From an uncultured Verrucomicrobiota bacterium (GTDB taxonomy: Bacteria; Verrucomicrobiota; Verrucomicrobiia; Limisphaerales; UBA9464): a DNA stretch of 64,000 bases. Position numbers and translations under genes: made by a program. The notes beneath the pieces were generated by a model. It was not told the origin of the DNA and searched no databases. It worked only from the letters and a program-made list of their open reading frames with translations. Position 1 is the stretch's first letter; each line of letters starts with the position of its first letter. The stretch is from contig CAIXUG010000052.1 in assembly GCA_903922605.1 (NCBI GenBank), positions 1-64,000 of the forward strand, written 5' to 3'. Shown here one piece after another: positions 21,312 through 28,985 of the stretch.

Positions 21312-22013
21312 TCAGGCGCGGGGGGCGCGCCGACGCCAGCCGGCGAAGGCCAGCAGGGCTACGCCCGCCACCACGGCGTAGGCCGTGGGTTCGGGCACCA
21401 TCGTCGCCTGCACGACCGTCCCCCCTTCCCCGTGAAAGTCAGCCGCACCGATATTGAATCTTAAGTCATAAAGCACCAGGCCGTTGAAATCCGAAGCCTT
21501 GACCGCATCGCCCGGAGCGGGATTGGCGATCGGTGGGGCGTTAAAGCTTAGGCTGTGAACAGGGACGGAATTGGGGCCAAATTGAAAGTCGCTGGGGGAT
21601 ACACCACCCCCGACTACGTACTCATCCAGCAAAGTGGCATTCGGGTCACCATGATCGTTGGGGGTGACCCCAAAAACAAAGTCATTTGGCGTGATGGAGA
21701 AGACACCATTATTGGCGGCGACCGAGGAATCGGTCACCGTCAGTGTCACCGATGACGGCGTGAGGAGCGGGAACCCCCCGGGGTTGCCATCGTCGCCGGT
21801 CGCATAAGTGGCCTGGTTCGCGGTGATCTCGAAGCTGAGGGTCGCGCCATTCATGCCCGCGGTGTCCGGACCAGAAACGAGGGCGGCTTGGAAGGTGAAA
21901 TCCAAAATGAGGACGCCAGCGTGGGCCGTGCCCATGCTGCTGCTGGCGGCCAGGGCCGAGAGGGCCAGGAGAGCGGTGGTGCCGAGGGGTTTTAATTTCA
22001 GATTCAATTTCAT
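21312..22013 (-). CDS. PEP-CTERM sorting domain protein
   Basis: A 233-residue exported protein. Residues 1-32 form a signal peptide (MKLNLKLK, hydrophobic run, GTAHA). The body is a beta-rich, low-complexity surface-type sequence of unknown function. From residue 206 there is a canonical PEP-CTERM anchor: VPEPTAY, a hydrophobic helix, then WRRR. This is a second, unrelated substrate of the same export and sorting route as the protein at 200-1066. It stands alone, with nothing else of the PEP-CTERM/exosortase system nearby. Confidence 0.88.
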   Translation of the reverse strand: MKLNLKLKPLGTTALLALSALAASSSMGTAHAGVLILDFTFQAALVSGPDTAGMNGATLSFEITANQATYATGDDGNPGGFPLLTPSSVTLTVTDSSVAANNGVFSITPNDFVFGVTPNDHGDPNATLLDEYVVGGGVSPSDFQFGPNSVPVHSLSFNAPPIANPAPGDAVKASDFNGLVLYDLRFNIGAADFHGEGGTVVQATMVPEPTAYAVVAGVALLAFAGWRRRAPRA

Positions 22014-22342
22014 TGAGGCAGGGTTTTAGGCGGAGGGCGGAGGGCGGATGCGGTGGGCAGGTTTTGGTTGGGCTGGAACAAGGGTGAATCAGAAAGGTCG
22101 GGCGGCACTGGCGAGCCGGGCGGCGAAGTCGTTCGCCGCCACGCGCCCGCGACGGACCTGATCCTTCGGCAAGTGATGATCGGAGTGGTCGTTTTTTGGG
22201 ACGGTTTGTGGATTTTTCCAATTATTCTTCAGAAAAAGGAGCCCGGTCAAGTCTCCCGCTATAATAACTCGGGAACTGGGGCGTAGCTTTTCATCGTGGC
22301 TGGTTACGGCTGCCGAAGCCCGCCCCGAAGTCCGCGAGGTCA
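22014..22342. other. Gap upstream of the PEP-CTERM gene; no gene seen
   Basis: The segment starts with the short word repeat CGGAGGGCGGAGGGCGGATG (about 22029-22048). It then holds an AT-richer stretch around 22190-22275 that may carry the promoter, but no clear -35/-10 pair could be fixed. No coding potential was recognised. Confidence 0.5.
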
Positions 22343-22457
22343 TGGACTGCGGTAGTCCTCTACCGCTTTGGTCGGGGCAATCGTCCAGAGGCAATGATAC
22401 TTCAGCCCATCGTCGAACCATCGGCGGTCGAAAGCGCCAGAGGACTGGCGCAGTCCA
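22343..22457. repeat. Pair of inverted REP-like elements with TCCT-loop hairpins
   Basis: Unit 1 (22343-22371, plus strand) and unit 2 (22429-22457, minus strand) share TGGACTGCG..AGTCCTCT..CGCTTT. Each folds into a 7-bp hairpin with the loop TCCT: GCGGTAG-TCCT-CTACCGC and, in unit 2, GCGCCAG-TCCT-CTGGCGC. The stem bases that differ do so on both sides, so pairing is kept. The arrangement, two facing units 57 bases apart downstream of hemL, resembles bacterial interspersed mosaic elements. Confidence 0.75.
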
Positions 22458-22524
22458 AGACGCGACCGCGCCCACCAACCCCTCGGTCCAAATCACCCGC
22501 TTCGACATGAATCAGCGTATCGCC

Positions 22525-23811
22525 TCACACCGTCCGCAACACCTTTGCCGCTGCCTTCACCGTCGCTTCAATATCCGCCGATGTGTGCGCGGTGGAGATG
22601 AACCCCGCCTCGAACTGCGAGGGCGCGAAGTAAAATCCCTCCGCCAGCATCCCGTGGAAGAACTTCGCGAACTTCGTCCGGTCGCTCCGCATCGCATCGG
22701 CGAGATTCCAGATGGGGCCGGGGCCGAAGTAGCCGCAGAACATCGAGCCCAGCCGCTGCCAGGTCACCGTGACGCCTGCGGATTTCGCGGCCTCGACCAT
22801 GCCGGCCTCGAGCTGGCGGCCGAGGGCGTCGAGCTGCGCGTAGGCATCGGTCGCGACGAGTTCGTCGAGTGCGGCGAGACCGGCGGCCATGGCCAGGGGA
22901 TTTCCGCTGAGCGTGCCGGCCTGGTACACTGGGCCGAGCGGCGCGAGACAGTCCATGATGTCCGCACGACCGCCGAAGGCCCCGACCGGCAGACCGCCGC
23001 CGATGATTTTGCCGAAGCAGCTCAGGTCGGGCGTGAGGCCGTAAAGTTCCTGCGCGCCGCCCTTCGCGAGCCGGAAGCCGGTCATCACCTCGTCGAAGAT
23101 GAATACCGCGCCATGGTCGCGGCAGAGCTGGGTGAGCAGTTCATAATAGCCGAGGCGGGGGAGATATAGGCCCGCATTCGCCGGCACGCCTTCAACAATG
23201 AGCGCGGCGATCTCGGGACCGTGCGCGGCAAAGGCGGCCTTCACCGCCTCCACATCGTTGAAGGGCAGCACGAGCGTGTGCTTCGCAAAATCGGCGGGTA
23301 CACCCGCGCTATCGGGATTGCCCAGCGTGAGCGCCCCGGAGCCGGCCTTCACGAGCAGTGAATCCGCATGGCCATGATAGCAGCCGTCGAACTTGATGAT
23401 CTTGTCGCGCTTGGTGAAACCGCGCGCGAGCCGGATGGCCGACATCGTCGCCTCGGTGCCGGAGTTGCAGAACCGCACCTTCTGCACGCTCGGCACGAAC
23501 TGCTTCACGCGCTCCGCCATCGTGACCTCGGCGGGATTCGGGATGCCGAAGCTCGTGCCGCGCTCCGCCGCCGCCTGCACCGCGCGGATGATCTTCGGAT
23601 GCGCGTGGCCGAGGATGGCCGGGCCCCACGTGCCCACGTAATCCACGAAGACATTGCCATCCACGTCCGTGATGCGCGCACCCTTGGCGGACTCGACGAA
23701 GAACGGATTGCCACCCACGCCGCGAAAGGCGCGCACGGGCGAATTCACCCCGCCGGGGATGTGGTTCAGCGCGGCGGCAAACAGGGCATCGGACTTGGTG
23801 CGCGTAAGCAT
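22525..23811 (-). CDS. hemL: Glutamate-1-semialdehyde 2,1-aminomutase
   Basis: A 428-residue PLP enzyme that converts glutamate-1-semialdehyde to 5-aminolevulinate in the C5 route of haem synthesis. The PLP lysine is Lys268 in [16 protein letters not shown], with FDEVMTGFR as the cofactor-ring aspartate region and [16 protein letters not shown] as the phosphate-binding part. The N-terminus [17 protein letters not shown] is diagnostic for HemL versus other class III aminotransferases. The ATG at 23811 ([11 protein letters not shown]) is used; ten further upstream codons run into repeat sequence. No other hem gene lies nearby. Confidence 0.96.
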
Positions 23812-23816
23812 TGGTA

Positions 23817-23997
23817 GGAAGGATGAATTATGAAGGATCAATTATGAAGTGAAAGGGGAGGCGGCCCTCCGTCGTAGCGCAGATTTTCAATCTGCTGTAC
23901 CGCAGGTTTGCAACCTGCAACGCGTGAAGACGAAAGTCGGCGCACTGATTTCCGGGGGCCTCTTTTTCATCATTCATAATTCCTAATTCATCCTTCC
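23817..23997. repeat. Facing AATTATGAA/TTCATAATT tracts enclosing a tandem 23-bp hairpin pair
   Basis: 23817-23849 (GGAAGGATGAATTATGAAGG and onward) faces 23968-23997 (reverse complement GGAAGGATGAATTAGGAATT and onward). Between them two tandem 23-bp units, at 23874-23896 and 23897-23919, each begin GTA(G/C)CGCAG and each form a 7-bp hairpin with a 3-base loop: GCAGATT-TTC-AATCTGC and GCAGGTT-TGC-AACCTGC. The A-T pair of one stem is a G-C pair in the other. The right tract overlaps the last codons and stop of the glycan gene at 23988. Confidence 0.75.
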
Positions 23998-26171: not shown

Positions 26172-28985
26172 TCATTTTCCGCCCTCCAGCCGGCTTACCT
26201 TCGCCAGAACATTCGTGAATTCAAGCGTGCTCTGGGGGGCGAGTTCCAGGTAACGGCGGAAGTGTTTGAGCGCCTCGGGCGACTCCTTTTTCCGGTCGGC
26301 GATTTCGCCGAGGCCGTAGTGCAGGATGTACTGGTCGGGGTGCTTGTCGTTCAGCAACTCGTAATCACGGCGGGCATCGTCCAGGCGGTTGAGCTGGAGC
26401 AGGCAGATGGCGCGATTGGCCCGGGCCACCTCGTTGTCCGATTTATGCTGGAGAATCCGGTCCAGCAGGGACAGGGCCTGGTCGAACTGGCCCCGGGTCA
26501 TGAAGATCACCACCCGGCGCTCGGCGATCTCCGGCTCATCGGGCTGGAGCTGCTCCCACTGGCCGAGCTGCTGCTGGGCCTCGTCAAAGCGGTTCTGCTG
26601 GAGATAGAGCTGCGAAAGCAGGTCGTAGCTGACGGTTTCCTTGGGCATGGCGTCATGCGCCTTGAGCAGCGGCTTTTCCATGTCACCGGCTTTGCCCATC
26701 ATGGCGTAGGTCCCGAACTCGAGGCGGATGAGCTTGACCGTATCCTCGGTCTTGAGCGGTACGCTGGCGCGCAACTCACCGATGGCATTGCGGGCCATGC
26801 CGGGTTCACCGGCATTCAGAAGCGAGCTGATGAAAGCCAGGGCGGAGGCGGGATTGGTGGGATCCAGCTGGCGGGAGCGCAGGAAGCGGGTCGCCGCCGC
26901 CCGGGGGAGGGGAGGCTCGGTCGTGCTGTAGTACCGCCCGATCAGATAGAGCGAATGCGGTTCATCCAGTTCACCCAGCTGGATCACCACCGCCGCGAGC
27001 GATTTGTCGGCCAGCGGTTTGCGGATGTCGTCGTCGATGGGTTTGTGAGCTTTCAGGGCGGCATTGACCTGGGCATTGATCGTGGTGGAGAGATTTTCGG
27101 GATACAGCTTCAGCGCGAGGTCGAAGAGGGCGGCAGCGTCCTCCAGCCGGCCGGATTGCTGCAGGGCCACGCCGTCGTTGTTGGCCGCGCGGGACCAGAG
27201 CCGGGCCGCAACCAAGGGATTGGGCGCTTCCAGTTTGACCGCCGCGATGATGGCAGCCAAGTCGGGCCGGATTTTGTCCCAATGGGCCTTGATCGACGCC
27301 GCCTCCTCCGCCGTGAGCGGCGCGGCTTCCACGTGACCGGCTTCATACGGATACATCCGGAAAATTCCGCCTTGGGAGCGGGCCTGCCATTGCTCGGTCA
27401 GGAAGTTCACGGATGGATTCAGGTAGAAGGCGGCGTGGTTGGTGGCGGCCCGCAACAGCAACCGCATGAAGGGCTGGGCTACGCCCTGTTGGGCCGCGGC
27501 AAAGTCGGCCAGCTCCGGCCAGCGGTTGCCCTGCTCGCGCGCCAGCAGGCGCCGGTATTCCGGCAGCGGTGCCAGATTGGGGTTGAACAGCAACCGGTCT
27601 TCGCCAGCCGGTGAGCGCCGGAAATGGGCCCCGATGAGGGAATGCAGCTGGGCGTCATCCGTGACGACCAGGGCCGGTCCGGTGGGCAGACCCGAGGTCA
27701 GGTGCTCGGCAAAGCGGCTGAGCAGGGGGCCATTCTGGGCGCGAATGAGCGGCAGGTTGCGGAGGATCAGTCCCGTGGGCGTACCCACCGCGAGGAGCAG
27801 CACCAGGCCGGCCCCGAGCTTGACCAGGCCATGGCCTCCGCCGGAACCGCGTTCCCACGAGCTGCTTGGCCGGCTGGTGCCGAGGAGCAGGAAATACCCG
27901 GCGAAATACGCGGCTGCAAGCGCGGCCGCGAAGCTGAAAGTCAGCAGGGGCAGCTCCGCCTGCTGGGGATCCAGCCGGATCAGCTTGCGCACGCTGAAGA
28001 CGGGATCGAAGGCCATGTACACCGCCAGACCCAGGAAAGCGACGCGGAACAGGCCCACGGCCCCGCTGCTCAGCATGCTTTCAAACCGGGTGCCGACGGC
28101 ACCGCCCCAGCGGATGCCCACCAGCACCAGGGGCAGCAGCATGACCAGGGACAGCAGCAGGAAGCGGCTCCGTTGGAGGCTGAAGAGGTAATTCTTCTGG
28201 GTGCCCAGCGCCTCCCGCAGCACACCCCAGACACTGTTGCCCCAGCCACCATGCATTTGGCTGACCAGGGGCATCACCAGATAGGCCAGCAGGCCGAGGC
28301 CGAACCAGGCCGCCAGCCGCAGCAGGAAACCCGCATTCAGGATGGCCAGCCCGCGGATCCAGCAGAGCGCGATCAGGAAAAACGGCGCAAAGCCGATCAT
28401 GGCCCAGTTGCCCGCGATGCCCAGGCCCATCAGCAGGGCGAAGCGCCAGAGCCACGATTCGCGCAGTTCCAGCCGGTATTCCAACAGGCAGCGGATGCAG
28501 GACGCAAAGACCAGCAGGTCAAGCATTTCCCCAGTTTGCGCCGTCGCTTCCTCCCAAAACGTGAGCTGGAGCCCGAGCAGCAGGGTGGCAAAGACCGGAG
28601 GAATCCAGGCGAGCCGGATGTGCAGGAGCGGATTGTCGACATGGTCCCGCATCCGTTCCTCGCGAGCACGGTCATGCGGGAGCAGCGCCACGCAGCGCGC
28701 CAGCGTCCACAGGGAGGCGGCGGCCAGCAACGCGGCCAGCAGGTTGGCGGCGTAGGGCACGCTGGCCGCCGGCACGAACTTCAGCGGCAGGCCGAGCAGC
28801 CACTGCAACGGATGGGAATAGGGCAGGGAATTGCCCCAGCCGGCCATCTCTTCCGTGGTTGCCAGGGACTTTGCACCCACCCATTGGTTCAGGGTCAGCA
28901 GGTAGAGCGCAAAGGTCACGCCCGCGATCAGCCAAGGCAGACGACGCCGGACAAAGACGCCAAGCGCCGGTGAATTATCTTCCAT
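26172..28985 (-). CDS. DUF2723 membrane protein with C-terminal TPR repeats
   Basis: A 937-residue membrane protein, first gene of the glycan operon. Residues 15-440 contain about ten hydrophobic segments and match the DUF2723 pattern (YLLTLNQWVGAKSLATTEE near the N-terminus, then GNSLPYSHPLQWLLGLP), a group related to GT-C protein O-mannosyltransferases. The expected early acidic residues of GT-C enzymes are represented by TTEE around residue 44. The rest, about 460-937, is soluble and ends in a series of TPRs (for example LLDRILQHKSDNEVARANRAICLLQL). GT-C proteins transfer sugars from lipid carriers on the outer face of the inner membrane; that activity is inferred. Confidence 0.75.
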   Translation of the reverse strand: MEDNSPALGVFVRRRLPWLIAGVTFALYLLTLNQWVGAKSLATTEEMAGWGNSLPYSHPLQWLLGLPLKFVPAASVPYAANLLAALLAAASLWTLARCVALLPHDRAREERMRDHVDNPLLHIRLAWIPPVFATLLLGLQLTFWEEATAQTGEMLDLLVFASCIRCLLEYRLELRESWLWRFALLMGLGIAGNWAMIGFAPFFLIALCWIRGLAILNAGFLLRLAAWFGLGLLAYLVMPLVSQMHGGWGNSVWGVLREALGTQKNYLFSLQRSRFLLLSLVMLLPLVLVGIRWGGAVGTRFESMLSSGAVGLFRVAFLGLAVYMAFDPVFSVRKLIRLDPQQAELPLLTFSFAAALAAAYFAGYFLLLGTSRPSSSWERGSGGGHGLVKLGAGLVLLLAVGTPTGLILRNLPLIRAQNGPLLSRFAEHLTSGLPTGPALVVTDDAQLHSLIGAHFRRSPAGEDRLLFNPNLAPLPEYRRLLAREQGNRWPELADFAAAQQGVAQPFMRLLLRAATNHAAFYLNPSVNFLTEQWQARSQGGIFRMYPYEAGHVEAAPLTAEEAASIKAHWDKIRPDLAAIIAAVKLEAPNPLVAARLWSRAANNDGVALQQSGRLEDAAALFDLALKLYPENLSTTINAQVNAALKAHKPIDDDIRKPLADKSLAAVVIQLGELDEPHSLYLIGRYYSTTEPPLPRAAATRFLRSRQLDPTNPASALAFISSLLNAGEPGMARNAIGELRASVPLKTEDTVKLIRLEFGTYAMMGKAGDMEKPLLKAHDAMPKETVSYDLLSQLYLQQNRFDEAQQQLGQWEQLQPDEPEIAERRVVIFMTRGQFDQALSLLDRILQHKSDNEVARANRAICLLQLNRLDDARRDYELLNDKHPDQYILHYGLGEIADRKKESPEALKHFRRYLELAPQSTLEFTNVLAKVSRLEGGK

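Follow-up and report, generated by a model that had tools for sequence, protein, structure and literature searches.

The window analysed here is a stretch of 64,000 nucleotides from the genome of an uncultured bacterium of the order Limisphaerales (Verrucomicrobiota), and about 50 bp past the stop codon of a class-III aminotransferase gene, which we take to be hemL, it carries the repeat element that is the subject of this report (Table 1). A neighbouring ORF has a C-terminus that, we presume, resembles a PEP-CTERM motif. The original prediction was that two hairpins face each other downstream of hemL, and direct reading bore this out: between positions 22343 and 22457 lie two inverted hairpins with 7-bp stems and TCCT loops, their heads (TGGACTGCG) pointing outward and their tails (CGCTTT) inward. 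Unit 1 is made up of the head CGAGGTCATGGACT, the hairpin GCGGTAG-TCCT-CTACCGC and the tail TTT, with a core (22343-22369, + strand) that reads TGGACTGCGGTAGTCCTCTACCGCTTT; unit 2 is made up of the head TCGCGTCTTGGACT, the hairpin GCGCCAG-TCCT-CTGGCGC and the tail TTT, with a core (22457-22431, - strand) that reads TGGACTGCGCCAGTCCTCTGGCGCTTT. An inverted-repeat search returned the pair as 31-nt arms, 84% complementary and 61 nt apart. The conserved ends of the whole doublet, judged by eye, fall at roughly 22331-22470, where the low end reads GAAGTCCGCGAGGTC on the + strand and the high end GGGCGCGGTCGCGTC on the - strand.

Table 1. Features at the hemL site, with positions in the window and the basis of each assignment
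Feature	Positions	Strand	Basis or composition
Neighbouring ORF	21312-22013	-	PEP-CTERM-like C-terminus
Whole REP doublet	22327-22473	no strand	Alignment A1, 18 subfamily-A doublets
REP unit 1	22335-22369	+	R1 model match, 50.1 bits; exact pattern match
Unit 1 stem-loop	22349-22366	+	Stem 22349-22355 with 22360-22366, loop 22356-22359
Internal spacer between units	22370-22430	no strand	Alignment of subfamily-A doublets
REP unit 2	22431-22465	-	R1 model match, 54.5 bits; exact pattern match
Unit 2 stem-loop	22434-22451	-	Stem 22451-22445 with 22440-22434, loop 22444-22441
Class-III aminotransferase gene	22525-23841	-	Pfam PF00202

The hemL-site element is one copy of a repeat of about 140 bp, and it has no match in the plasmid collection. 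In ORF 22342-23169 of the window, and in 1806-2720 of locus L276 from a relative (G036), such doublets, if read in frame, yield tell-tale peptides (ALECGDLSPL, CGSPLPL and KRQRTGAVQDA), which are handy markers of REPs in protein files.

A family of paired hairpins

The whole-genome search that had been proposed for the hairpin pattern returned 16 exact matches in the 5.3-Mb source genome, eight on each strand and both window copies among them; the pattern written backwards, our control, returned none. Pairing was no part of this query, which left the free stem positions unconstrained, and all 16 matches pair at all four of those positions, one of them through a G.T pair. The two findings that had been named as telling against the prediction, just two copies in the genome or unpaired stems, were therefore not what we saw. 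At up to three mismatches the pattern was found twice in the window against a mean of 1.23 in shuffled windows (33 of 100 shuffles reached two), and genome-wide 151+164 matches stood against 122+131 for the control; because these loose counts lie so near the control, we relied on near-exact matches of the right layout and on matches to a covariance model.

That model, R1, was built from 67 aligned units, which remained from 80 candidates after 13 were dropped for poor pairing or loop. It identified 103 units in the source genome at E <=1 (among the best 150 of 6475 candidates), at least 90 of them at E <=0.001. Eighty-four of the 103 fall in 42 head-out pairs that span 102-144 bp; the remaining 19 are unpaired under the pairing rule, though a search of the single locus reveals a weak partner for at least five of these. 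The repeated unit is thus a pair of inverted REPs, as in a REPIN, and the single unit is, like REPs in general, a palindrome of 20-50 nt that is present in high copy and mostly intergenic: at 30 of 38 loci no ORF, by rough calls, crosses the element, which often lies between convergent genes.

The unit consensus consists of a head AGCGTCTTGGAsT, a hairpin GCGNNNN-loop-NNNNCGC and a tail TTT. Stem types GCGGCAG, GCGCCAG, GCGGTAG and GCGCGAG recur; a second subfamily, with a TGCT loop, uses GCGCCGG, GCGGCGC and GCGGTGC, and a third has one long arm. Among 27 pairs from subfamilies A and B, not one joins two identical arms, an outcome that random re-pairing gave in 4.5% of trials for A (18 pairs) and 6.2% for B (9 pairs). 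The foot is GGACT in 35 of the 67 units, GGAGT in 26 and something else in six. None of the 67 has GTAG or GTGG within 0-2 nt of the stem, so these are not REPs of the GTAG type (many heads of subfamily A do have a GTAG, some 12 nt upstream); nor are they of the CGTC type, as the CGTC lies 7 nt off, the stem opens with GCG and the tail is TTT.

It had also been claimed that the differing stem positions change together. By three of five measures the stems do covary: 98.5% of their cells are paired, in an alignment whose rows were selected for at least six of seven stem pairs; 80 cells carry changes on both sides where shuffles give 25.4, a figure that none of 500 shuffles reached; and the covariation score is 0.539 against 0.182 in shuffles, none as high, and at most 0.166 in slid controls. 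The other two are unremarkable: two-sided changes occur at 5 pairs where shuffles give 3.9 (26 of 500 reach as many), and further pair types number 11 where shuffles give 10.0 (140 of 500). Kinship among the rows inflates all such comparisons with shuffles. Because the rows were picked for pairing and are related, the pairing in all 16 exact matches is the cleaner, unbiased test. When the doublets were folded jointly with RNAalifold, the heads formed an outer stem of eight pairs in subfamily A and seven in B; these pairs hardly vary and therefore tell us little about the joint fold, and the position beside the outer stem is C.C in some copies.

Distribution and turnover among relatives

Of 58 genomes of the order, 39 have R1 matches at E <=0.001, the source genome among them, and the other 19 have none, so that the number per genome runs from 0 to at least 120. 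A pattern scan of named genomes gave at least 105 loci; among the matches listed, the names are verrucomicrobial for about 80 (Limisphaerales, Pedosphaera, subdivision 3 and others) and chlamydial for nine. Pattern matches in bins named Chlamydiae or Parachlamydiales include L088, L096 and also L115, and in the first two the units lie just 46-47 bp apart, start to start.

The closest relative, G004, has a hemL that is 97% identical and shares at least seven sites with REP-bearing loci of the source genome, among 17 unit-bearing regions of G004 that were compared. At the six shared sites where both units could be aligned, one-sided changes affect seven of 84 stem pairs and two-sided changes none. 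Substitutions amounted to 7/168 in stems (4.2%), 10/227 in heads (4.4%), 3/48 in loops (6.2%) and 0/36 in tails (0%), against 55/369 in spacers (14.9%) and 370/2780 in flanks (13.3%), although the low rates at the ends are biased, the sites of both genomes having been found through the consensus ends. Spacers diverge like flanks, and the difference between loops and either of these is not significant.

These comparisons bear on the further claim of the original prediction, that covariation marks selection on structure. Such selection is expected if the host keeps the element at each locus as an RNA or DNA structure, be it a stabiliser of mRNA 3' ends, a terminator, or a gyrase or nucleoid site. 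The placing of most copies outside ORFs and often between convergent genes is in keeping with such a role, as are the predicted folding of the hemL-site element (z of -3.35 as RNA and -4.33 as DNA) and the slower change of stems, heads, loops and tails than of spacer or flank at the six shared sites, the last of these being subject to the bias of choosing sites that match the consensus ends. Against it, we found no intrinsic terminator (a hairpin followed by a T run) between 22000 and 22600 and no Rfam match at E <=1 between 21900 and 22900; the repeat is patchy among relatives and is linked to one clade of transposases (below); and the absence of any two-sided change among the 84 stem pairs is not what upkeep site by site would give. 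We therefore regard a host-selected structure as unlikely. Pairing is indeed kept, but because changes at shared sites are one-sided only, the paired differences resemble alternative types of arm that spread as copies, pairing being needed for copying, rather than compensation site by site.

A possible sign of turnover came from the comparison with G004. One of its doublets (L331) is absent from the syntenic interval of the source genome; the interval is divergent and the junction is not clean, and neither a clean empty site nor a target duplication was seen there. Another doublet of G004, located beyond the C60 site, could not be matched to an empty site. We considered the hemL locus itself as an empty-site test and rejected it: none of the 19 other hemL loci examined has the element, but homology ends near the hemL stop codon in the eight relatives compared, so that its absence there says little. 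At another interval, where the source genome has an IS200-like Y1 gene (L047), G004 (L336) has a doublet of the studied family together with other sequence.

A RAYT clade flanked by the same hairpins

Among relatives, 15 of the 18 RAYTs (TnpA_REP) of one clade carry the studied hairpins on both sides. Three are in the source genus (G004:C31, G003:C2 and G002:C175), and the others are in G041 (two), G017, G046, G016, G014 (two), G048, G039, G032, G007 and G036. Matches reach E <=0.01 on both sides in 14 of them; in the last, L276 of G036, one side has an E of 0.042. The locus of G002 is identical to the public sequence CAIWVP010000175.1, which holds the clade RAYT, at about 26380-26784, with its REPs. 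The RAYT domain of G036 is preceded, in the same frame, by a REP doublet. The clade RAYT has no match in the plasmid collection.

The survey covers the loci examined, a subset of all RAYT matches. In a tree of 52 RAYTs, all 15 flanked members fall inside one clade of 18 with support of 99/99, and the flanking label changes three times, against 13.3 times in shuffles; BLAST places all of twenty further RAYT loci nearest other clades. A joint search at E <=0.1 found no two-sided hairpins at 54 RAYT loci outside the clade (weak partial matches occur in L379 and L393, one each), where 13 of the 54 have less than 400 bp on one side and are thus well tested on the other side alone. The three remaining clade members (L368, L371 and L372) have no R1 match, but by eye they are bordered by hairpins that have diverged and yet retain GGAsTGC, on both sides in L368 and L372 and downstream in L371. 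Around the 15 flanked RAYTs the foot is GGAGT or GGACT in 69 of 74 unit matches (one row by eye), a count that is favoured by the GGAsT head contained in R1, and the stems and loops differ in sequence as well as in length.

The NCBIfam model NF047646 was the profile that picked out this clade: it finds all 18 members at E <=0.001, of which three pass its 80-bit cut-off. Pfam Y1_Tnp (PF01797) was tried as a RAYT finder and rejected; of 73 loci (33 + 40) among the matches listed whose surroundings were tested for REPs, L276 alone was placed in the clade, most of the other 72 having stayed off the RAYT tree. One clade member was typed further, and its best PDB match is the E. coli TnpA_REP (4ER8, E 6e-6; next best 0.028); it matches no Pfam family at E <=0.001. 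H70 and Y132 are invariant in nine aligned members, eight of which have NHYH (L388 has NYYH). The clade thus has the HuH and tyrosine motifs of RAYTs as well as similarity to TnpA_REP.

Clade RAYTs share a genome with the studied hairpins in G002, G003 and G004 of the source genus. The source assembly, which is 95.84% complete, contains none: it has five Y1_Tnp matches (Pfam) and three NF047646 matches, none of these genes adjoins studied hairpins, and the three NF047646 matches at E <=0.001 group in other clades. The look-up of a genomic RAYT that had been suggested therefore did not yield a gene of the linked clade in the source genome itself. None of the Y1_Tnp or RAYT matches lies in the window, in agreement with what had been noted there. 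What moves the repeats had been left open; the relatives now provide a specific and testable candidate.

It might be argued that the RAYTs merely landed in REP-rich DNA and that the REPs are spread by something else. No clade member is present among the loci examined in REP-rich G006 and G010, nor in the likewise REP-rich source genome (G000), and a few other Y1 genes (L236, L258, L259 and L261) have single REPs nearby. Chance landing does not account for two-sided flanking that is seen in 15 of the 18 clade members and at none of the 54 other loci, or for the few changes of the label on the tree, and where clade members have diverged their hairpins have diverged too and yet kept the foot. We think this explanation quite improbable. 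With the doublets abundant in the source genome and a RAYT among the same hairpins in relatives, the description of the pair as REP-like stands in a stronger form than was proposed, namely as a doublet.

Other Y1 and RAYT-type genes were seen along the way. G010, G011, G015 and G008 have multi-copy Y1 proteins of about 330-360 aa, and RAYT-model matches number up to 29 per genome (G010); the loci tested in G010, G011 and G015 have no two-sided hairpins of the studied family. The IS200-like Y1 gene at L047 (G000:C6:70553) has copies of another hairpin repeat, ACCGGGCTGAAGCCCGGT, on either side, and a hairpin resembling that repeat lies upstream at L049 (G000:C3:97403); these hairpins probably represent another REP family. 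RAYT-type domains also occur in frame and without stops inside essential genes of the order (L375, L367, L274, L373, L273 and L371). Alanyl-tRNA synthetase has such an insert in the source genome (L375, G000:C61:115432-115860), G055 and G036, at two different positions; further hosts are threonyl-tRNA synthetase (G043) and DnaE (G036), and in G037 a RAYT-type domain is fused to proline racemase. Pfam confirms the alanyl-tRNA synthetases (L375, L367), threonyl-tRNA synthetase and the racemase as hosts, and those of L274 and L273 were named by their reading frames. Judged by eye, the alaS insert (L050 1381-2070, G000:C61) has at its two ends a perfect inverted repeat of 23 bp or more, GGGACCGCGCCCGCCTCGGGCGC, resembling the terminal repeats of TIR-bounded tyrosine transposases. 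The choice of host genes recalls that of inteins, if only by analogy, and our literature search found nothing on RAYT-type domains inside essential genes.

A REPIN-like doublet with its own foot

REP doublets known as REPINs or BIMEs are reportedly present in E. coli and Pseudomonas (the account of Bertels and Rainey from 2011). The studied element is like these in having two inverted REPs with a short spacer, in its many copies, in its intergenic placing and in the REP-flanked RAYT gene, and, like some such families, in its non-identical arms; it is unlike them in having the foot GGAsT instead of GTAG or GTGG and in that the RAYT is missing from the source assembly. To our knowledge, GTAG is the foot read by the REP transposases that have so far been examined experimentally, and it helps to choose the cut site.

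In one survey (PMC3733652), two tagged REP superfamilies are described, GTAG and CGTC, the latter reported without a transposase, and the verrucomicrobium Opitutus terrae is listed with GTAG families. The studied units share with both superfamilies a palindrome with a conserved unpaired end, the frequency of heterodimers, a verrucomicrobial host and some copies in frame within genes. They differ from the GTAG superfamily in having no GTAG at the foot, and from CGTC REPs, which are characterized there by CGTC at the foot, AT pairs at the start of the stem and a CCA tail, in that their CGTC is 7 nt from the stem and the stem is without those AT pairs (PMC3733652). For the transposases, a classification (PMC6006769) points to subclass 2.8 of TnpA_REP, whose genes are reported with long GT[AG]G REPs in Cyanobacteria and have relatives elsewhere: the clade is similar in NHYH, in a proline-rich N-terminus and in that some genes have a REP inserted, and differs, as compared by description only, in the Y motif, YVHQNP in the clade and YIHYNP in subclass 2.8. 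Class 3 TnpA_Y1 is also similar, as its RAYT-like genes occur among hairpins that are present in high copy and whose foot, CnGA, is not GTAG, but it has Y----Q and the clade has Y---NP, the class 2 type; atypical hairpins are described for subclass 2.6 as well (PMC6006769). According to a further report (PMC8266576), the E. coli TnpA_REP cuts at CT next to REPs with the GTAG foot as guide. In searches of open-licence literature on REPs, RAYTs and Verrucomicrobia, made by topic and not by foot letters, neither a GGAsT-footed REP nor its clade came up. The system is thus of a known kind, REPIN/RAYT-like, with a foot that differs from the described GTAG and CGTC tags.

We conclude, with a probability of roughly 0.88, that the pair downstream of hemL is a copy of a non-autonomous mobile REP doublet that was spread by the HuH-tyrosine RAYTs of one clade. 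The repeat family, the pairing of its stems, the doublet layout, the patchy copy number and the link to the clade are observed, as is presence and absence at one syntenic interval, and together these are consistent with a population of REPINs that a RAYT serves; the hemL-site repeat is very probably mobile. Recognition, cleavage, copying and movement by the RAYT are what we infer from these observations. A MITE of an ordinary DDE transposon, with terminal inverted repeats that fold by chance, would share the inverted ends and the spacer, but a separate hairpin sits at each end, it is a HuH-Tyr gene that such ends flank in one clade, and no target duplication was seen at the single interval compared, all of which makes it highly improbable. 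The observation behind the original prediction is confirmed, and its first interpretation is partly supported.

The mobile doublet would work as follows. The hairpins would fold when the DNA is single-stranded, and a RAYT of the defined clade would recognise the GGAsT foot and the base of the hairpin, nick at the ends and help to copy the doublet into new, mostly intergenic places. The CT dinucleotides kept in TCTTGG and GCTTT might, at a guess, be the cut sites. Mispaired arms would not be copied, so that the copies that spread would show paired stem changes. The copies in the source genome may now be orphans, or their RAYT may lie in the unassembled ~4%.

Going one step further, we lean towards the view that GGAsT-footed elements are a third tagged REP superfamily with its own verrucomicrobial RAYT clade, which would read the foot and the stem base while the apical stem and the loop drift in pairs; loops in GGAsT-footed hairpins range from 4 to about 20 nt. 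If this is true, the family and its transposases would provide a natural set of guide-swapped REP/RAYT systems, and a clade with a different foot across many genomes, stems and loops would be a natural experiment on how targets are recognised and chosen. A widespread verrucomicrobial repeat is now tied to a transposase, and paired stem changes in mobile repeats need not mean that the host selects for structure at each site.
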